From contig JAADHC010000025.1 of the NCBI GenBank assembly GCA_013152085.1, forward strand, positions 45,097 through 109,096: a stretch of 64,000 nt of DNA. The letters run 5' to 3'. A program made the translations under genes and the position numbers. Shown piece after piece: positions 6,277 through 44,161 of the stretch. The notes under the pieces were generated by a model. It was not told the DNA's origin. It saw only the letters and a list, made by a program, of their open reading frames with translations, and searched no databases. The first letter of the stretch is position 1; each line of letters opens with the position of its first letter. The DNA comes from Chlorobiota bacterium (lineage in GTDB: Bacteria > Bacteroidota > Bacteroidia > Bacteroidales > VadinHA17).

Positions 6277-7974
6277 TTATGCTTCGGCCTTTTGAATGTT
6301 AGGCTTCTCAAGTCCGTAATCCTTCTTGCGATCTTCGATCTTAAGCAGGAAGGCAAATAACAGGGATATTACCGAAAGAGCAAGGAATATCAAAATATCA
6401 TAGAGATAATTATACCGGAGATTCAGCTTTTCTTCATTAACCGCCTGAAATGCACTTTCTGACCCGGCCCGTATCACTTTAATAAGAACAACATCCTTGT
6501 TACCGGAAAGATTTACATTATTAATGTTTTGACGAATTCCGGTATAGATTTCATTGCCGACTTTCTTCTTATCCAAAACATCAGAAGGTACCGGTTCATA
6601 ATGCGAATACTGAACGATAGAATCCACCGCTGTTCCCGTAGCCTTTTCAATGGCCCTGTCTATCTCTTTTGGAGTAAACATAGCCGTTGAGAGGGATTCT
6701 TTAAATGCTTTCTCTATAGCTCCTTTCACTAGTATTTTATTGGGGGAAACATCGGGATTGGTGGCATTCAGTACAAAGCCCAACAGCAGCGGAATAAACA
6801 ATAAACCAATATTCTGTATCCAGAATATCACGGCATAGGCTGTCCCCAGTTGTTTCTCCGGAATGATTTTCGGTACCGAAGGCCACATAGCAGATGGAAC
6901 CAGCGAAAATCCAACCCCCAGAATGATCACCATTGCAGCTGCCACCCACCACATTCGTAAAGAAGGAATTGCCAGCACCCCGTGAACAAAGACCAGGATC
7001 ATCGCTCCAACGATCATGATCGTGGCTCCCTTACCGAATTTATCATATATTCCACCAAAAACCGGTGTTAGAAAGATCGTTCCGAAAGGCAGTAAAAGAG
7101 TGATGGTCCCGGCCAGATTGGGACTCACATTATATTTATTGATCATCAGGTCATTGGCATAGAACAAAAATGGGAATACCGCCGAATAAAATAAAACACA
7201 TAAAATGGCAATATACCAGAATCCCCGGTTTGTAATAATGTAACCAATATCTTTGATCTTGAATTCATCTTCTTCCGATTTTTCTTCTTTGGACGCCTCC
7301 TCTGACTTATCAAGTTTAATATCCATGATGGAAAAGGAGATAAAGGATATCACTCCGATCAACATTACAATTAATGCAAACAGGATAGGTGCCGTTACAC
7401 TGAATTTTTTTGCCAGCGGTATGGATATCCCCAGTGCCAGGCCAGTACCCAGCCGGGCAATTGACATTTGCATCCCCATGGCCAGGGCCAACTCCTTTCC
7501 CTTGAACCATCTCACTACCGCCTTGGAGATCGTGATTCCCGTGGCTTCGGTTCCAACCCCAAATATGGCAAACCCAAAGGACGACCATAAAACCTGGGTT
7601 TTCATATCTCCAAGCAGGGGTAAATGCACTACAGCATTTTCTGGAAACTGATGAGATATGGCCCAGTAATTTATGGCTGTGCCAATAAACATAATCAGTG
7701 TTGCTCCCAAACCCGTTTTTCTGACGCCCAGTTTATCCAGAATAAAACCACTGATGATAAGCATAACCAGAAAAACATTAAACCAGGCATAAGCAGAGGT
7801 ATAGGTTCCAAAATCCCCGCTATTCCATCCAAGGATACTTTCCAGCATAGGCTTTATAGCGGAAAGTGCATAATTAAAATAGTAGGCACCGAAAATAGAT
7901 AATGAAACCAGAACCAAGGCCGTCCATCGCGCTACTGTCGATTCTCTCAAAGATTTTCTGATATGCTCTGTCAT
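6277..7974 (-). CDS. MFS transporter
   Basis: 12-TM-like hydrophobic pattern, IIGFILDKLGVRKTG-type MFS loop motif and GGIYDKFGKGATIMI in the second half. Confidence 0.88.
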   Translation of the reverse strand: MTEHIRKSLRESTVARWTALVLVSLSIFGAYYFNYALSAIKPMLESILGWNSGDFGTYTSAYAWFNVFLVMLIISGFILDKLGVRKTGLGATLIMFIGTAINYWAISHQFPENAVVHLPLLGDMKTQVLWSSFGFAIFGVGTEATGITISKAVVRWFKGKELALAMGMQMSIARLGTGLALGISIPLAKKFSVTAPILFALIVMLIGVISFISFSIMDIKLDKSEEASKEEKSEEDEFKIKDIGYIITNRGFWYIAILCVLFYSAVFPFLFYANDLMINKYNVSPNLAGTITLLLPFGTIFLTPVFGGIYDKFGKGATIMIVGAMILVFVHGVLAIPSLRMWWVAAAMVIILGVGFSLVPSAMWPSVPKIIPEKQLGTAYAVIFWIQNIGLLFIPLLLGFVLNATNPDVSPNKILVKGAIEKAFKESLSTAMFTPKEIDRAIEKATGTAVDSIVQYSHYEPVPSDVLDKKKVGNEIYTGIRQNINNVNLSGNKDVVLIKVIRAGSESAFQAVNEEKLNLRYNYLYDILIFLALSVISLLFAFLLKIEDRKKDYGLEKPNIQKAEA

Positions 7975-8228
7975 GATTATGCGGTTTAATTTTCAAAATA
8001 ATGATTGCGAAATTAAGAGAATAGAATGCATCACAAAAGAAAAACCCATAAAAATGTTCAGGAATAGTCGAAAAATGTTTACGTAATCCCTGAATTTCCT
8101 GATTTTTACAACTACATCTTTTTTAGCAGAGGCCTTCTGTTTTTTTCAAGTTGAAGAATTCCTGTTGAGTAAATGGGAATACTACAATGTTGTTTAACAT
8201 TGCTTTTCAGATAAAAAATGATTAATTT

Positions 8229-8939
8229 TTGCAGTTCAATATTATAGTCATGCCTGTTGATATTACACGCTATGCTATCGAACGGCTCAGGGAAAGGGAA
8301 ACCCGGAAATCCCAAGCCGGACCGGTGATTACTATCAGCCGTGAATATGGATGTCCATCCAAAATTATTGCCGGAGAATTAACCAAAGTCATTCGTTCAG
8401 AAAGTAAGAAAAAAGATCGCACGAAATGGCACTGGGTAAGTAAAGAGATCCTTCAGGAAGCTGCTTCTTCTCTGGGAATGACCCCGCGTGAAATCAAATA
8501 TGTTTTTGAGTACAAAGAACATACGGTTTTTGATGAAATACTGGTTGCACAGTCAAAAAGATATTATCACAGTGATAAGAAAATTCGCAAAACCATAAGT
8601 GAGGTTATACGCGCACTCGGATGGGAAGGACATGTGATAATCGTAGGTAGAGCCGGTGTTGCCATTACACGTGAAATTGAAAAATCGCTACATGTCCGGC
8701 TAATGGCACCTAAACGCTGGCGTACCGTCCAGGTAGCAAAAAACCACAATATTTCACCCGCTGAAGCAACCAAACTTATTGACGAAATGGATACCAAGCG
8801 GCGGAAGTTTATGGAATACTATCTTAAATCAAGTCCCGGTATAGATTTGTTTGATATCGTTCTCAATTGCAGTACGCTGTCGGTACAGGAGATCGTACGT
8901 TTTATCTTCCTCCTGGCTGAAGAAAAAAAACTCGTTTAG
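8229..8939 (+). CDS. Cytidylate kinase-like family protein
   Basis: VITISREYGCPSKIIAGELTKVI... with VIIVGRAGVAITREIEKSLHVRLMAPKRWRTVQVAKNHNISPAEATKLIDEMDTKRRKFMEYY. Confidence 0.8.
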   Translation: MQFNIIVMPVDITRYAIERLRERETRKSQAGPVITISREYGCPSKIIAGELTKVIRSESKKKDRTKWHWVSKEILQEAASSLGMTPREIKYVFEYKEHTVFDEILVAQSKRYYHSDKKIRKTISEVIRALGWEGHVIIVGRAGVAITREIEKSLHVRLMAPKRWRTVQVAKNHNISPAEATKLIDEMDTKRRKFMEYYLKSSPGIDLFDIVLNCSTLSVQEIVRFIFLLAEEKKLV

Positions 8940-9047
8940 CTTACATCTCAATTTCCCTCTTCCGGGATTTATTAATGAATCCTGATCATCCAAAAGTTTT
9001 TTCACAGGATTTTTCTATCTTGAGCCGTAATCCAAAAACATCTTACC

Positions 9048-10949
9048 ATGCAAACCATCATTAATTTTTTCGAAGACAGTGTTTCCCGTTTTGGTGAAAA
9101 TATATACATGTGGGAAAAGGAAGAAGATGCATATACGGGGACAACCTACAATGAAATCAGAAACCAGGTATACCGGTTTGCTACCGGTTTATTGAGCCTC
9201 GGTATCCAAAAAGGCGACCGGCTTGCACTCCTTGCCGAAGGAAGAAATTTATGGATGATCAGTGAACTTGGTATCCTCTATACCGGAGCAATCAATGTGC
9301 CGCTGTCTATAAAACTGGCTGAACCCGAAGAAATTAAATTTCGTATCGATCATTCCGGTAGCCGGATGGTAATCGTTTCGGGACAGCAACTGAAAAAGAT
9401 CAGGCCAATAAAAGGGCAGCTCAGGACACTGGAAAAGATTATCCTTCTGGACCCGGAATCAGACCTCCAGCCGGATGAGATTTTTGTGGAAGAACTGATG
9501 AAAAACGGTGACCGCTGGCTCTCGGAACATGAAAACGGATTGAAAGAAAGGATCCGTACCATAAAGGAAGATGATTATGCAAATATCAGTTATACTTCCG
9601 GTACTACAGCCGATCCGAAAGGAATTATCCTTACCCATAAAAACTATGTTACCAATGTAAATCAGGCCTATACTTTGCTGGATATCCCGCCATATTACAG
9701 AAATTTGCTGATCCTGCCATGGGATCATTCCTTTGCCCATACCGCAGGCTTGTACAGCCTGATGGGAAAAGGAGCCAGTATTGCCTCGGTACAGATCGGA
9801 AATACAGCAATAGAAACCTTAAAGAATATTCCTGTAAATATTAAGGAGATAAAACCACACATGCTGTTCAGTGTACCTGCATTGGCTAAGAATTTCAGAA
9901 AAAATATTGAAAAAGGGATCAGTGCCAAGGGGAAATTTGCCGAAAAGCTTTTCCGTCATGCCCTGAAAATGGCCTATTCGTATAACAAGGAAGGATATAA
10001 CAAAGGGCGCGGATTACAGAAGTTGAAAAAACCTTTGCTTGCCCTTTATGATAAAATACTTTTTTCAAAAATTCGTGAAAATTTCGGTGGGGAACTGGAA
10101 TATTTCATCGGCGGTGGGGCCCTCCTGGATATTGAATTACAGAGATTCTTCTATGCACTGGGTATCCCGATGTACCAGGGATATGGACTATCGGAAGCCG
10201 CACCCATTATTTCTTCCAACAGTCCTAAAAAACATAAACTCGGATCATCAGGCTTCCTGGTTACACCTTTAGAGCTGAAAATCCTGGATGAAAATGGGAA
10301 CAGCCTGTCTGTTGGAGAAAAAGGGGAAATTGTGGTTAAAGGTGACAATGTCATGGCAGGTTACTGGAAAAATGAGGAAGCCACCAGAGAGACGCTGAAA
10401 GATGGCTGGCTTTACACCGGCGATATGGGATATATGGATAAGGACGGATTTTTATTTGTGCTTGGCCGTTTCAAAAGTTTACTGATCAGTGACGACGGTG
10501 AAAAATACAGTCCCGAAGGTATCGAAGAAGCATTTACCGACCAGTCTCCGATTATCGAACAGTGCATGCTGTACAATAACCAGAATCCTTACACGGTTGC
10601 CCTGGTCTATCCGAACAAAGAAACCCTGAAAAAGTATCTTGCAGGAAAGGATACGGCAGGGGAAGAGACCGGAAAAGAAGCGTTGAAACTTATCGAACAG
10701 GAACTCCGGGAATACCGTACCGGAGGCAAATATGGCGATATGTTCCCGCAAAGGTGGTTACCGGCAGCAGTTGGAATTCTCAGCGAAGGGTTTACCGAAG
10801 AGAACCACCTGATGAATTCAACCATGAAAATCATTCGCGGAAAAATTACTGAAAAATATCAGGGATTGATCGATTACTTGTATACATCTGAGGCAAAGAG
10901 TATTACCCATCCGGAAAATCTAAAATCCATTCAGAAGCTGTTTGAATAG
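9048..10949 (+). CDS. AMP-binding long-chain acyl-CoA synthetase
   Basis: ISYTSGTTADPKGIILTHKNYVTNV (A3 motif), QGYGLSEAAPIISSN, GWLYTGDMGYMDKDGFLFVLGRFKSLL. Confidence 0.93.
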   Translation: MQTIINFFEDSVSRFGENIYMWEKEEDAYTGTTYNEIRNQVYRFATGLLSLGIQKGDRLALLAEGRNLWMISELGILYTGAINVPLSIKLAEPEEIKFRIDHSGSRMVIVSGQQLKKIRPIKGQLRTLEKIILLDPESDLQPDEIFVEELMKNGDRWLSEHENGLKERIRTIKEDDYANISYTSGTTADPKGIILTHKNYVTNVNQAYTLLDIPPYYRNLLILPWDHSFAHTAGLYSLMGKGASIASVQIGNTAIETLKNIPVNIKEIKPHMLFSVPALAKNFRKNIEKGISAKGKFAEKLFRHALKMAYSYNKEGYNKGRGLQKLKKPLLALYDKILFSKIRENFGGELEYFIGGGALLDIELQRFFYALGIPMYQGYGLSEAAPIISSNSPKKHKLGSSGFLVTPLELKILDENGNSLSVGEKGEIVVKGDNVMAGYWKNEEATRETLKDGWLYTGDMGYMDKDGFLFVLGRFKSLLISDDGEKYSPEGIEEAFTDQSPIIEQCMLYNNQNPYTVALVYPNKETLKKYLAGKDTAGEETGKEALKLIEQELREYRTGGKYGDMFPQRWLPAAVGILSEGFTEENHLMNSTMKIIRGKITEKYQGLIDYLYTSEAKSITHPENLKSIQKLFE

Positions 10950-11096
10950 CCGGGATATACTCTGCGTGTACGTACACGCAGATTGTCTCTTGTGATGTGT
11001 TGTTTTCTTTTGATGAAAATACCCGGATTTCGGGGGGAAATCGAAATAACCTGACATGAACTTTTACAGTCTCTGTTCCATTTGAATATCTTTCCG

Positions 11097-11104
11097 TAAC
11101 TTTG
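11097..11104 (+). promoter_or_regulatory. Bacteroidota -7-like element TAACTTTG
   Basis: Matches TAnnTTTG 16 nt before the ATG at 11121; no convincing -33 element seen. Confidence 0.4.
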
Positions 11105-11120
11105 GATAAGAATTTTATCC

Positions 11121-14100
11121 ATGAACAAGATTCGTAAATACACGCGAAAAACTTGTTATCTGAAAACCACATTTTATTTTCTTGTGGCTACCTTTTTTTT
11201 GGGTACGCTCATTAAGGCATATCCTGCCGAATCCACCGGGACCCCATTGATCAGCCATTTTACGCCACCTGAAGATTTTAACACCGAGGTGCGGGCTGTT
11301 TCACAGGATGGAAACGGGAATCTTTACCTCGCTAACCGCCAGGGAATTCTATGGTTTGATGGCATTTCGTGGAAGTTGCTTCCTGAAATCAGACAGGTAT
11401 ACAGCTTGCATTACGATGCTGCAAATGAACGTATCTGGGTTGGCGGTAACGGATATATCGGATATCTCAATACCAAAAACGATATTCCCGGACCCTTTCA
11501 TATGATATCCGTAAGCGATTCTCTTTCCGGAAAATTCGATCACATCCTTACCCTGGAGGAGAATCTTATCTTTTGCAGTGAACAGTCCATTGTCTCCGTT
11601 TCACCTGATATACGCGCCAGTATCATGTCTGAAGCCGGAGATCATGTTTTTACCGGGTTTTTTATCCACCGCCAAAACCTGTATGTTAATATTGAAAAAG
11701 AAGGATTAACGGTTTATACAGCAGGGAAATTAGTCCCTGTGGACGGCGGTAAGCGTTTTCAGGAAGATATCATTTTGTTTGGTATCGGTTTCGACCGGCA
11801 ACATACGCTTTTTGCTACCGACAACAGCTTTTTATATCTCTTTGACGGACAACAATTCAGTGATTACATCCCGGAAGATGAAGAATATTTATTTAACCGT
11901 ATCCTTACCCATGCAGTATTGTTTGACGATACAACCCTCATCCTTGGAACCCGTAACGGCGGATGTCTCATCCTGGATAAACGGAACCGTAAAACACGTT
12001 ATATCATCAATTACCAGAGTGGTCTGCCTGACAACGAAATCCTGTCGCTGGGCCGGACAGCCGATCAGGAACTTATTATCGGGCACATCTATGGTTTCTC
12101 AATGGTTAACCTTACCATTCCGGTTAAAAGTTACAATGTTTATCCCGGACTTGAAGGCAATATACTTACCTTACTGCCTGAAAAAGGACATCTTCTGGTT
12201 GGAACCAGCGAAGGTATTTTTCTGCAGAAACAGATCAAAGAGTATGAGAAAAGCCGGATTATGGTACGGGTACGGGTACCGTTCACGGATACAACATCTT
12301 CAGAAAAAACCGGAGAAACACAGCATTTAAAACAACAAACCGTTCAGAAACCGGAAGTACCTCGTGAATCAGAAGCTTTTAAGAAACAAAGTTTTTTTTC
12401 ACGGATCTTTGGAAAAAGAAAAACCGGAGAAGAAGTGGCATCACCGGAAAAGCCGATAGCTACGCCGCAACTGTTTCCGAAAACAACGCAAAAACATATA
12501 AAAAAAGTAATTTACCGATATGTCCCAAAATATATATACAAATTTAAATCAATAACATACCGGTATAAGAAATTAGGCAGTCTGAACGCACGTTGTACAA
12601 AACTGGTTCCTTTCGGGGGACAGATTCTGGCAGCTACCAATGCAGGCCTCTACTCCATTCGTAACGAAAAAGTCGAATTTGTATTCATGGGGACACAGGT
12701 ATATGATATTTTACCCGATCCGGTTAGCCGCAATGTGGTTTTCTGTGGTACGGAAGACGGGGTTTATCTTTTAAAGTTCTCCGAAGGCCGTTGGCAGGTC
12801 GATCGGGATTATTTTCCATCAGATTTACCGGTTTACAGCATCATCAGGGATGGGAAAAACCTCTGGCTGGGTTCCGAATCCGGGGCACTCCGGCTTACTG
12901 TAGATAATGAAACCCTGCAGGTTGAAAATGTAAAAAAGTATCTTTTCCCGACAACCTATCCCCAACCTGTCATATCCATATTCATTAACGGGTCTCCGGC
13001 CTTTCTGATGAAAGAGGGATGGTATGATTTTAACCCGGAAATGCAAAAAATGATCCTGCACGCTGATTTTCCCGGAACAAACCAACCCTGGTTAAACTTT
13101 ATTCGCGCCCGTGAAAATGTTTGGATTAAAGGGGATGAGGGATGGTTCGCCACAGGTATCCTTCCCGATGGCACGGTAACCACCTTTCCATATCTGAATA
13201 TTTTTAACCGGATCACAGGACTGCAGGCCGACACGGACGGGAACCTTTGGGTTATTGTGAATCATTCAATGATCTATAAACTGGAGCCCGGTACAACACA
13301 CGAACCTCTTTTTCATGTGCGCGTCAAAGAAATGGTTCGCTCAGGTCAGACAACGGCAACCAACTTCTTTTATACGCTGCTTCAACCTTCCGGCGAAACC
13401 CGGGTAACCTTTTCCGCACCGTGGTTTTTGCAACCTTCCAAAACAGAATACCAGTATATGCTGGAAGGATTCGGCAATGTCTGGAGTGAATGGAATACAG
13501 GTCGTCAGATCACGATCCCATACCTGCCACCGGGAGATTATGTTCTTCACTACCGTGCCCGAAACGTCTTGGGAGGTGTCGCCGAAGGGGAACCGGTACC
13601 ATTGCATATTCCTGTTCCGTTTTGGCAACGCTGGTGGTTTATCCTGACCGTTTTCCTGGTTGTGATATTCATTATCTGGGGGATAATACGTATCCGGTTA
13701 CATAAACTTGAAAAGGACCGGCGCCTCCTGGAAGAAAAAGTGCGGAAACGAACAGCCGAGATACGGAAACAAAAAGAAAAAATTGAAGCACAACGTGATG
13801 AAATCGCCCGGCAAAAGCAGGACATTACCGACAGTATCGCTTATGCACAACGTATTCAAAAAGCCTTACTCCCTCCCGAGCACATGATCGAAAAATTACT
13901 TCCCGAACATTTCATCCTCTTCCGCCCGCGCGATATTGTGAGTGGTGATTTTTACTGGATCAGGCGCAGTAATAATCATATTGTGGTTGCCGCAGCCGAT
14001 TGCACCGGCCATGGTGTCCCGGGAGCGTTTATGAGCATGCTGGGTTCCTCCTTTCTTAATGAAATTATCAGCCGGCACAAGGTACTTTCGGCTCCGGATA

Positions 14101-17931: not shown

Positions 17932-19653
17932 ATGAAAACACAAAGTACCCTTAAAACCGTTATCGTTGCAGTATTTGCAATAAATTTAATGATGACCCCA
18001 CGAATGATCTATTCGCAATCCACGCTGGATTGTAAAACTTGTCACAATGAAATTTTCCTGGCCTGGCTGGCGGGAAGTCATTCCCATACACAAAAGGATA
18101 TTGCCCTTGAACTGGCGGCAGAGCGTATCGGACAATCGGCGGATACCGTTATAAATGGTTCGGATGCGGAAAATTGTATCGCATGCCATGCCCCGTTGGC
18201 AATTACTGAAAACGGTGGTATGACCGAAGTCCAGGCACTGGAACATTTCTTTACGACAACCGGAGGAGTTTTCACTTCTGGTACAACCATTGCAGATTCT
18301 GCAAACTGGCCTCACAATTATTGCACTACCTGCCATAATGTACCTGGTAACCATCCGACCGGTTTACCTGAATTTGGTTATTTCAACTCTTCAACGGCAA
18401 CGTATGATTCAATTGGGAAAGTTGCTTCCCTTTGCGGTCAATGTCATGGGAATCTCCAGTTTGAAGGGACAGACCACTTGACTTATAATGCCTGGAATAT
18501 GAGCAAGCACGCTTTAACACAGGATGATGTGAGCTCAGAGCTGGCAGAAGAAAGAGCCGGCGAATCCCCGGATACGGTTGTCAACGGTTCAGATCCTGAA
18601 AATTGTATTGCCTGCCATGCCCCAACGGCTGTGTTGGCCAATGGAGGAATGAGCGAATCAGAAGCACTGAACTATTTTTTCTCGACAGAAAGTGGCGTTT
18701 TTACAGCAAATACAACATCCTTGAACGGGGATCAATGGCCTGATGTCTCATGTATATCCTGTCATAATCCTCACGAACCGAACCTGGTTTCCTATTTCAA
18801 TTCATCCACAAAGCAATATGAGGTTATGGATAGTACGGCAAAACTATGCGGTCAATGTCATGGAAATTTACGCTTTCCCGGCACAGACCATCTGAGTTAC
18901 AATATTGCGAAAGGCGTAGGCGCCATCGGAGTCACGTATAAAGAAACAATGCCGGGTATAACTTGTACAGATTGTCACATGGCTGCCGGCCCGGAAGACA
19001 CAAAAGCCGATATGTATCACGGACACAGCTGGTCGGTGTTTGTCACAGAAGATGACGGGAGTGAAACGGTTGCATGCCAGAATTGCCATAGCAGTATGGA
19101 TGCGGCAGTATCCAGAACGCAGATTCAGGCATATAAAGATGAAGCTGCTGCAAGTCTGAGCAGTGCAGAACAGGAAATGAGTACAGCCGATAGTTTATTG
19201 AATTTATCCGGTGATGCTGAATTACTGGCACAATTAGATTCGGCAAAAACCAACCTGTCTTTGGTTGAAGGCGATGAGAGCGGCGGATTTCACAATCATA
19301 AGTATCAAATGGACCTGCTGGCAGATGTTTTACAAAAACTGGATCATATTATTTCAGTCGCAACAGGTATTCATAATTCCAGCTTGCCTTCCGGTTTCGA
19401 ACTTTCTCAAAATTTCCCGAACCCATTCATTTATTATACCGATATCAAATATGCCATTCCGTATAATTCTTATGTCCATATGAATATTTACGATAATACC
19501 GGCAGGCTTGTAAAAACCGTCGTTAATAAATATCAGAATCCGGGCGTTTATAAGGTAAATATTGATATGACTGCATTCCCGGCCGGAAATTACTATTATG
19601 TCCTGAAAGCCGGAAATACAAAAATCTCAAAATCGATGATTATATTAAGATAG
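17932..19653 (+). CDS. Secreted multiheme cytochrome c (nine CxxCH) with T9SS type A sorting domain
   Basis: CKTCH, CIACH, CTTCH, CGQCH, CIACH, CISCH, CGQCH, CTDCH, CQNCH counted in the translation; C-terminus FELSQNFPNPFIYYTDIKYAIP...FPAGNYYYVLKAGNTKISKSMIILR. Confidence 0.93.
   Translation: MKTQSTLKTVIVAVFAINLMMTPRMIYSQSTLDCKTCHNEIFLAWLAGSHSHTQKDIALELAAERIGQSADTVINGSDAENCIACHAPLAITENGGMTEVQALEHFFTTTGGVFTSGTTIADSANWPHNYCTTCHNVPGNHPTGLPEFGYFNSSTATYDSIGKVASLCGQCHGNLQFEGTDHLTYNAWNMSKHALTQDDVSSELAEERAGESPDTVVNGSDPENCIACHAPTAVLANGGMSESEALNYFFSTESGVFTANTTSLNGDQWPDVSCISCHNPHEPNLVSYFNSSTKQYEVMDSTAKLCGQCHGNLRFPGTDHLSYNIAKGVGAIGVTYKETMPGITCTDCHMAAGPEDTKADMYHGHSWSVFVTEDDGSETVACQNCHSSMDAAVSRTQIQAYKDEAAASLSSAEQEMSTADSLLNLSGDAELLAQLDSAKTNLSLVEGDESGGFHNHKYQMDLLADVLQKLDHIISVATGIHNSSLPSGFELSQNFPNPFIYYTDIKYAIPYNSYVHMNIYDNTGRLVKTVVNKYQNPGVYKVNIDMTAFPAGNYYYVLKAGNTKISKSMIILR
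18097..18489 (+). repeat. Internal duplication unit 1 of the cytochrome
   Basis: ELAAERIGQSADTVINGSDAENCIACHAP...CGQCHGNLQFEGTDHLTYN parallels unit 2. Confidence 0.85.
18523..18903 (+). repeat. Internal duplication unit 2 of the cytochrome
   Basis: ELAEERAGESPDTVVNGSDPENCIACHAP...CGQCHGNLRFPGTDHLSYN parallels unit 1. Confidence 0.85.
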
Positions 19654-41670: not shown

Positions 41671-42489
41671 ATGAGATTAAAAATATTGATATTAACCGCC
41701 GGGCTGTTTACAATCATTTTCCATACAACACTTTCCGGACAGACAATCACTGCAGGAGATACATTATTCAATCAGATTGATAAACTTAACCGTAAACAGG
41801 GATATTGGAAAAAACTTGATGACAAGGGGACCCTGGTATACAGGGGGTTTTTTAAAGACGGAAAGCCTCAGGGAGCATTTATCAGATATCATGAAAACGG
41901 TACCGTAAAATCAAAGATGAATTACCTGCCTGACGGACATACCGTAGAGGTGAAATTTTTCTATGCCAATGAAAAACCCGCTGCTGAAGGCCGTTATTAT
42001 GACCGGCAAAAAGACGGTGAATGGAAATATTACTCTTTTTATGAGGATTTCCTGTCCTATACAGAAAATTACACCCGCGGAAAGAAAAACGGACTCAGTA
42101 TAAAATATTTTTCCAATGGCAATATCGCTGAGAAACTGAATTGGAAAAACGGATATAAAAACGGTGAATGGCTGCAGTTTTTTCCAAACTATAAACCAAA
42201 ACTCAAAGCTTATTATGTGAATGATAAGCTTGAGGGTTCTTTCACCGTATATCATTTGAACGGATTCAAACAAATTGAAGGATCATATAAGAATAACCTC
42301 CGTGATGGGGAATGGCACACCTATGATCTTGAAGGAAACCTCACTGCCACAATCCATTATCGCAACGGCGTCGGGGATAACGAAGAAAAGATCACACGCC
42401 AACAGATGGAACTTCTTGATTCTCTCGAACGAAACAAGGGAAAGTTCAGCGAACCTGATTTAAATGGGCTGGACTTCCGGAAAAGATAA
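41671..42489 (+). CDS. Secreted MORN-repeat-variant (YwqK-like) protein
   Basis: Signal peptide and repeated G-x-F/W-x-x-Y-x-x-N-G units (GFFKDGKPQGAFIRYHENGTVKSKMNYLPDG, DGEWKYYSFYE, NGEWLQFFPNYKPK, DGEWHTYDLEGNLTATIHYRNG). Confidence 0.85.
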   Translation: MRLKILILTAGLFTIIFHTTLSGQTITAGDTLFNQIDKLNRKQGYWKKLDDKGTLVYRGFFKDGKPQGAFIRYHENGTVKSKMNYLPDGHTVEVKFFYANEKPAAEGRYYDRQKDGEWKYYSFYEDFLSYTENYTRGKKNGLSIKYFSNGNIAEKLNWKNGYKNGEWLQFFPNYKPKLKAYYVNDKLEGSFTVYHLNGFKQIEGSYKNNLRDGEWHTYDLEGNLTATIHYRNGVGDNEEKITRQQMELLDSLERNKGKFSEPDLNGLDFRKR

Positions 42490-42505
42490 AATAAATCTGG
42501 TAAAA

Positions 42506-44161
42506 ATGACCGGTAAAAGGCATATTTGCCTTCTCATTGTGATTCTTGTTTTTCAAGTGATGCAGCTTACAGCCCAGCATACGCCCGGTTTTTATTTTAT
42601 ACGTTTTACCGATAAAAACGGTTCTGCTTTCTCCATAGACTATCCTGAAGCTTTTCTTTCTCAGAAAGCCATCGACCGGCGCATCAGACAAAACATCCCG
42701 GTCACCGTAGAAGATCTGCCGCTTTCATCCTTATACACAGACAGTCTTCACTCACTTGGACTGGATATACATGCAAAAACAAAATGGATGAATGCCGTTA
42801 CGGTAAGGACTTCGGATACCGCATTACTGGATACACTGGAAAAACTCGACTTTATTGCATCTGTCGAAAGAACCCGGCCACTCACGATAAAAAAATCACT
42901 GATTAAGAAGTGGAGAGATAATCTTACTAAAAATGCAAATTCGACCTTTTCCGAAACAGGGATAACTTCCCTGAAACAACTCTCTATGTTGAATGGGGAC
43001 CAGCTTCATGATTTGGGATACACGGGAAAAGGGATCACTATTGCCATTCTGGACGCCGGTTTTTATCATGCCAATGCTTTACCTGCCTTTGACAGTCTCT
43101 TTACAGGAAACCAAATCCTCGGAACCTATGACTTTGTCTCCGGTGATTCAGAAGTATATAATGATCACGCTCACGGTATGTATGTGTTAAGTTTGCTTGG
43201 AGGGAACATCCCCGGACAACTGATCGGTTCGGCACCCGGTGCCGATTATTGGTTATTGCGCTCCGAGGATGCACTGACAGAATATATCATCGAAGAAGAT
43301 TACTGGACTATGGCCGCAGAATTTGCCGATAGTGCAGGGGCTGATATCATTTCCTCATCTCTTGGATATTTTCTTTTTGACGATTCAACACAGAATCATA
43401 CCTATCAGGACATGAACGGTCGTACCACACGGGTGGCCCGTGCGGCTGCAATGGCTGCCGCACGAGGGATCATTGTAGTGGCCAGTGCAGGTAATGAGGC
43501 CCTGAGTTCATGGCACTATATCATTTCTCCTGCCGATGCAGACAGTATACTGGCGGTAGGTGCCGTTGATTCGCTGAATAACGTGGCATCTTTCAGTTCA
43601 AAGGGTCCGTCATCAGATGGCCGGGTTAAACCGGATGTCAGCGCCATGGGCGTTCAGGATATTATCCAGGGATCTTCAGGTACCCTTGTACGCGGAAATG
43701 GCACATCTTTTTCTGCTCCCATCATCAGCGGACTTACTGCCTGTCTCTGGCAGGCATTCCCTGATGCCGGTGCCCTTGAAATTATCGAAACGATAAAACA
43801 AAGTGCTGATCATTTTAATAATCCTGATAATGATACCGGATATGGAACTCCGGACTATCTCCTTGCTTTCAGCCAACTCAGCTCAATACGTCATCTCAAC
43901 CCGGCAAAAGAAGCGATGGTTTTTCCAAATCCATTCTCCAATCAACTTTTTATTGCACTGAGTGATTCTCAAAATACCCTCCTGACCTTAACATTTTATG
44001 ATCTTACAGGAAAAATACTCCTGAAAGAACAGTTAAAAAGATCTTCTCCAAACCAAATAATCATAATCACCGATCATCTCTCCGGTCTTCCTGCCGGTTT
44101 TCTCATCTTAAGAATATCAGGGAAAAATCTCGAATTAAGTTTAAAAATTATTAAAGAATAA
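42506..44161 (+). CDS. Subtilisin-like (S8) serine peptidase with T9SS type A sorting domain
   Basis: ITIAILDAGFYHANALPAFDSL, DHAHGMYVLSLLGG, VRGNGTSFSAPIISGLTACLWQAFP; C-terminus VFPNPFSNQLFIALSDSQNTLLTLTFYDLTGKIL...LSLKIIKE. Start at internal Met. Confidence 0.9.
   Translation: MTGKRHICLLIVILVFQVMQLTAQHTPGFYFIRFTDKNGSAFSIDYPEAFLSQKAIDRRIRQNIPVTVEDLPLSSLYTDSLHSLGLDIHAKTKWMNAVTVRTSDTALLDTLEKLDFIASVERTRPLTIKKSLIKKWRDNLTKNANSTFSETGITSLKQLSMLNGDQLHDLGYTGKGITIAILDAGFYHANALPAFDSLFTGNQILGTYDFVSGDSEVYNDHAHGMYVLSLLGGNIPGQLIGSAPGADYWLLRSEDALTEYIIEEDYWTMAAEFADSAGADIISSSLGYFLFDDSTQNHTYQDMNGRTTRVARAAAMAAARGIIVVASAGNEALSSWHYIISPADADSILAVGAVDSLNNVASFSSKGPSSDGRVKPDVSAMGVQDIIQGSSGTLVRGNGTSFSAPIISGLTACLWQAFPDAGALEIIETIKQSADHFNNPDNDTGYGTPDYLLAFSQLSSIRHLNPAKEAMVFPNPFSNQLFIALSDSQNTLLTLTFYDLTGKILLKEQLKRSSPNQIIIITDHLSGLPAGFLILRISGKNLELSLKIIKE

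Follow-up and report, generated by a model that had tools for sequence, protein, structure and literature searches.

One gene of the window (the whole 64,000-nucleotide stretch of Chlorobiota bacterium DNA that was analysed) encodes a nine-heme cytochrome c with a T9SS sorting tail. Judging from its sequence relationships, the protein is probably a terminal reductase of the cell surface, built on the plan of OcwA and exported by T9SS, the export system of Bacteroidota type. Known systems for surface redox enzymes are porin-cytochrome conduits, and multiheme cytochromes are not known to leave the cell as holoproteins through T9SS. Inspection of the open-licence literature found no link between T9SS and multiheme cytochromes, nor a protein of nonaheme plan that takes the T9SS route.

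Heme plan and comparison with OcwA

The protein contains exactly nine CxxCH motifs (C34, C82, C131, C168, C225, C274, C306, C345 and C382), the number reported in an earlier reading made from the sequence alone. Composition-preserving shuffles contained a mean of 0.022 such motifs, with a maximum of two in 20,000. The parts of the gene, together with candidate partner loci in the same genome, are collected in Table 1. The gene is solitary, with two SusD-like genes upstream, a 370-base gap, and a peptidase-like gene downstream on the opposite strand. The statement that no NrfH, porin or other cytochrome gene adjoins it was thus borne out, and the locus lacks the neighbouring outer-membrane porin and periplasmic cytochrome genes of a porin-cytochrome conduit (Mtr/Pcc type). 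Promoter and terminator scans around the gene gave signals no better than shuffle level.

Table 1. Features of the nonaheme gene (window positions) and candidate partner loci in the same genome
Feature	Location	Strand	Description
Whole gene	17932..19653	+	Single ORF, 573 aa; signal peptide, nine-heme core, three-helix bundle, T9SS type A tail
Sec signal peptide	17932..18015	+	Residues ~1-28, read by eye; cleavage site without tool prediction
Heme 1 motif CKTCH	18031..18045	+	Resembles heme 1 of c554; H50 of AWLAGSH is a candidate distal ligand
Catalytic module 1 (predicted), residues 44-186	18061..18489	+	Hemes 2 (18175-18189), 3 (18322-18336) and 4 (18433-18447)
Module 1 terminal TDH motif (H182)	18469-18477	+	Placed over putative open heme 2 via alignment with OcwA HH281/282
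Catalytic module 2 (predicted), residues 187-324	18490..18903	+	Hemes 5 (18604-18618), 6 (18751-18765) and 7 (18847-18861)
Module 2 terminal TDH motif (H320)	18883-18891	+	Placed over putative open heme 5 via alignment with OcwA HH380/381
Met340	18949..18951	+	Identical in 18/18 orthologs; possible counterpart of the distal Met of OcwA heme 9
Hemes 8 (CTDCH, 18964-18978) and 9 (CQNCH, 19075-19089)	18964..19089	+	NrfA-like hemes 4 and 5; H365 (GHSW) between them
C-terminal three-helix bundle, residues 391-478	19102..19365	+	Conserved SGGFHN (H454); from alignment, helices in weak model
T9SS type A sorting domain, residues 495-571	19414..19644	+	FPNPF ... SKSMIILR; TIGR04183, kept in orthologs
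19-heme/cytochrome b561 protein	C49 (G000)		c554-like and seven-heme neighbours
NapC/NrfH-like six-heme membrane protein (quinol dehydrogenase)	C74 (G000)		With DUF5777 barrel, hexaheme lipoprotein and CcsB/ResB-like biogenesis protein
Alginate_exp-type porin and octaheme cytochrome genes	C11 (G000), L071:4540-7387		Porin gene directly followed by that of the octaheme
Rieske/cytochrome-b cluster	C56 (G000)		With eight-heme TPR protein

A search of the PDB with the single sequence returned 6i5b as its best match (1.5e-8), and a profile of the 18 orthologs returned the same entry at 1.2e-17, compared with 1.4e-7 for NrfA. This entry is the structure of OcwA from Thermincola potens, a terminal reductase of the cell surface with nine hemes, of which hemes 1-4 overlay cytochrome c554 and hemes 5-9 overlay NrfA (PMC6703420). 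Its hemes 1, 3, 4, 6, 7 and 8 are bis-His ligated, heme 9 is His/Met ligated, and hemes 2 and 5, each beneath a His-His pair, are left open (PMC6703420). Alignment to 6i5b gave the same order of nine hemes in the window's protein, c554-like (1-4) and then NrfA-like (5-9), with matching positions for the six distal His residues of the bis-His hemes. The two proteins also share a predicted His over hemes 2 and 5, a C-terminal helix bundle, an expected extracellular location and, in every ortholog of the present protein, a Met near the heme-9 ligand position.

Residues were mapped onto an OcwA sequence read from a PDB alignment. The OcwA segment SHHLQYPEWLMTGH aligned with TDHLTYNAWNMSKH, which put H182 at the second His of HH281/282 and H193 at the next ligand. 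The OcwA segment GKEVHHPHKEMNEG aligned with FPGTDHLSYNIAKG, and H320 was placed by eye at the second His of HH380/381, the automatic alignment putting a neighbouring His in that column. In all 18 orthologs H50, H182, H193, H281, H320, H365, H454 and M340 are invariant, while H141 is found in 16 of the 18 and in 25 of 28 wider relatives. H50, H193, H281, H365 and H454 are also identical in the 28 wider relatives and in OcwA; these relatives all keep H320, 21 of them have H182, and M340 is absent. M340 lies five residues before the heme-8 motif (seven in OcwA) and does not fall in the OcwA column of the automatic alignment. With six distal His residues and one Met for nine hemes, two hemes would be left open, as in OcwA. 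Because an AlphaFold2 model built from a two-sequence alignment was too poor (mean pLDDT 40.7, pTM 0.26; three helices at 391-478), these ligand assignments rest on alignment, and the pairing of individual His residues with individual hemes is a predicted one.

The His-His pairs of OcwA over hemes 2 and 5 are replaced here by Asp-His (TDH), only the second His being kept, and the 80-residue beta-sheet insertion of OcwA (residues 75-156, between hemes 1 and 2) is missing, the spacing from heme 1 to heme 2 being 48 residues compared with ~109 in OcwA. Since both features were looked for and not found, the protein was classed as a variant rather than as OcwA proper. The host of OcwA is an iron-respiring Gram-positive bacterium, and the wall location of OcwA contrasts with the T9SS tail seen here.

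The protein also matches the Pfam family Cytochrom_C552 (NrfA; 3.1e-13), and its hemes 8-9 and C-terminal bundle align with NrfA (2j7a, 1gu6). However, NrfA has five hemes, the catalytic one bound by CxxCK, whereas all nine motifs here are CxxCH and CxxCK is lacking. Full-length NrfA models scored 14.9 bits, far below the cut-off of 692.5. The sequence-only reading had left the function between extracellular electron transfer and a detached reductase. Family comparison narrows it: the protein belongs with neither NrfA nor the octaheme enzymes, and its nine-heme plan is one shared with a surface terminal reductase. The combination that would speak against the earlier reading, a known periplasmic reductase with complete catalytic residues and no recognised sorting domain, was not seen; the tail scored above the NCBIfam cut-off.

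A tandem duplication of a three-heme module

An alignment of the two repeat units spans 143 columns, 79 of them identical (55%), and scores 422 (shuffle mean 32, sd 5.5). The units abut exactly, with zero residues between them. The two modules of OcwA, in contrast, are not recognisably alike. The duplicated three-heme block noticed earlier is therefore real, but about 140 rather than ~130 residues long. TDH motifs end both units, and are kept at both places in the orthologs; what was duplicated would thus be the catalytic module, the repeat corresponding to the two OcwA-like catalytic modules.

In trees of the repeat units of the orthologs, first copies and second copies formed separate groups, pointing to one old duplication. 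Recent duplication or continuous gene conversion was ruled out, since like-numbered modules of different orthologs group together; as further evidence, the identity between the modules of one protein (42-66%) is not above that between orthologs (56-63%). The Hydrogenedentota ortholog L008, with 66% identity between its modules, may be an exception to this pattern.

Sorting tail, orthologs and wider family

The C-terminal tail matched TIGR04183 with 26.9 bits (cut-off 23), and with 32.2 bits in the genome scan, while Pfam Por_Secre_tail gave 25.5 bits, just under its gathering score of 27. A type A T9SS sorting tail, as had been proposed, is therefore recognised by the NCBIfam model and narrowly missed by the Pfam one. 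The same genome encodes SprA (2788 bits), the PorU sortase (1289 bits) and 34 type A tails over the cut-off. The tail is kept in 17 of the 18 orthologs; together with this machinery, it favours the earlier proposal of a T9SS-exported surface or extracellular redox protein. The untailed exception, L008, has a lipobox-like LLLAGC after an N-terminal hydrophobic stretch. Here the same core would carry a different, lipoprotein-like anchor and reach the surface in another way. Elsewhere in the window, a type A T9SS tail (38.1 bits) is also carried by a subtilisin-like serine protease encoded at positions 42464-44161, and the protein encoded at 329-1840 has an end that by eye resembles a CHU_C / type B T9SS domain (FVPNAFTPDNDGRND).

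An ortholog is carried by 17 of the 391 genomes from the class of G439 (at a guess, Ignavibacteria-like), by two of 295 genomes of the window's own order, the window's genome included, by none of the other 116 genomes of its family, and by one Hydrogenedentota MAG. Alignments and conservation counts refer to a set of 18 orthologs. In the tree, the window's protein forms a pair with the Hydrogenedentota ortholog (support 0.999) rather than with the second protein from its own order. This patchy distribution suggests horizontal transfer of the gene. Foreign base composition was not seen (gene GC 43.6%, window 42.6%), so transfer is not visible in this way, and no relatives were found in the viral contigs searched. 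Conservation of the surrounding genes is lacking for most orthologs, and most have no cytochrome neighbours. In one genome (L040; G316:C149), the ortholog (7274-8986) lies next to the gene (9305-12046) of a 914-aa protein with nine hemes that belongs to the wider type; both genes are on the same strand, and both proteins have a T9SS tail. In two others (L074:8858-10797 and L084:2810-4752), genes for a small helical-repeat-like protein and a sensor-type protein, a PAS/sigma-54 activator in L074, adjoin the ortholog.

When the phylum was searched with a profile of the core only and a threshold of 1e-20, 59 of 396 genomes had a relative. The tail motif was present at all 30 loci drawn from these matches, and nine CxxCH motifs at 28 of them. 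TIGR04183 matched 26 of 26 wider relatives, 24 with nine hemes and two with eight. Since the wider relatives carry the tail, tailed nonahemes are a family-wide design and not an oddity of one gene. These proteins (L012-L024 and L092-L117, same phylum) share the ligand positions and the type A tail with the window's protein, but their cores are only 21-25% identical to it, most have an extra N-terminal domain, a His instead of a Met lies near the heme-9 position, and the site-1 His is lost in seven of 28.

Electron partners and proposed function

The genome was surveyed for partner cytochromes, as the sequence-only reading had advised, and candidates are present, none of them adjacent (Table 1). 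The survey rests on PF13435, and the partners found are a lower bound. A single-CxxCH pattern occurred at 409 places in the genome, and a double-CxxCH pattern gave zero matches there. The hexaheme lipoprotein (L073:13401-14477) aligns with hemes 4-9 of the nonaheme protein, shares its C-terminal bundle and has an IHH motif. It differs in having a single module, a collagen-like spacer and no T9SS tail, and in adjoining DUF5777 barrel and NapC-like genes; it is a possible outer-membrane partner. At the ortholog locus L055/L074, genes for a 23-heme and a 16-heme protein, both with b561 domains, come after that of the ortholog (51% identical) on the same strand. The 23-heme protein is 44% identical over 883 residues to the 19-heme protein of the window's genome, an arrangement seen at this one locus only. 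Among the other loci, the octaheme cytochrome of C11 matches Multi-haem_cyto and, weakly, hydrazine-dehydrogenase-like proteins. On C49, a cytochrome b561 protein is fused to a glycine-cleavage-H (lipoyl carrier) domain (L070:13455-14687), and a PBP-like protein fused to a GCV_H domain (L070:10637-12364) likewise lies among multiheme cytochrome genes.

The match to Cytochrom_C552 and the two conserved, predicted open-heme sites would also suit a surface or secreted enzyme that acts, in detoxification or respiration, on a small soluble compound (nitrite, hydroxylamine or another oxyanion) and not on solid or shuttle acceptors. OcwA, too, can reduce nitrite, though slowly, and it acts on hydroxylamine in both directions, by reduction and by oxidation; its kcat for nitrite is just ~1 per minute (PMC6703420). 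With CxxCK absent, NrfA models far under their cut-off and no NrfH adjacent, such a role appears unlikely. Conservation of the open sites bears on another view, that of a non-catalytic conduit or hub at the surface, serving partner cells, electrodes or other surface cytochromes, and possibly the uptake of electrons, in which the open hemes are incidental. A chain of nine hemes could conduct, the distribution is patchy and partner cytochromes are numerous in the genome; yet a wire would not require H182 and H320 to be identical in every ortholog, or TDH to be kept over both modules, and we regard this role as distinctly doubtful. Least can be said for a periplasmic cytochrome with a weak or unused tail. 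The Pfam score just under gathering and the untailed Hydrogenedentota ortholog point that way, but a tail that exceeds the NCBIfam cut-off and is kept in all other orthologs, in a genome with a working-looking T9SS (SprA, PorU and 34 tails), makes it very improbable.

As a T9SS-exported surface reductase, the protein would enter the periplasm through its Sec signal and there receive its hemes, a CcsB/ResB-like protein being encoded in the genome. Its nine hemes would form a c554-like part (1-4) and an NrfA-like part (5-9), in which the tandem duplication produced two near-equal modules, each predicted to contain one heme without a distal ligand (2 and 5) under Asp-His. The folded holoprotein would cross the outer membrane via SprA, PorU acting at the tail. 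Electrons might be supplied by a quinol dehydrogenase of the multiheme/cytochrome-b kind and by hexaheme partners in the periplasm or outer membrane, pass along hemes 1-9, and exit through one or other of the open hemes or through exposed edges of hemes. The acceptor would be extracellular: a metal oxide, a humic or flavin-like shuttle, and possibly also nitrite.

The near-identical modules provide direct sequence evidence on a published question, the origin of nonaheme and octaheme cytochromes from smaller ones: hemes 2-4 and 5-7 clearly go back to a tandem duplication, and a relative with six hemes and just one module is encoded in the same genome. The broader proposal, that T9SS serves in many genomes of the phylum as a general export route for OcwA-type multiheme reductases, via SprA and not a porin, with one subfamily bearing two near-identical Asp-His open-heme sites through tandem duplication, seems to us about evenly balanced. 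If true, the tailed nonaheme family would represent a T9SS route for surface redox enzymes in Bacteroidota and their sister classes, one that is genetically testable.
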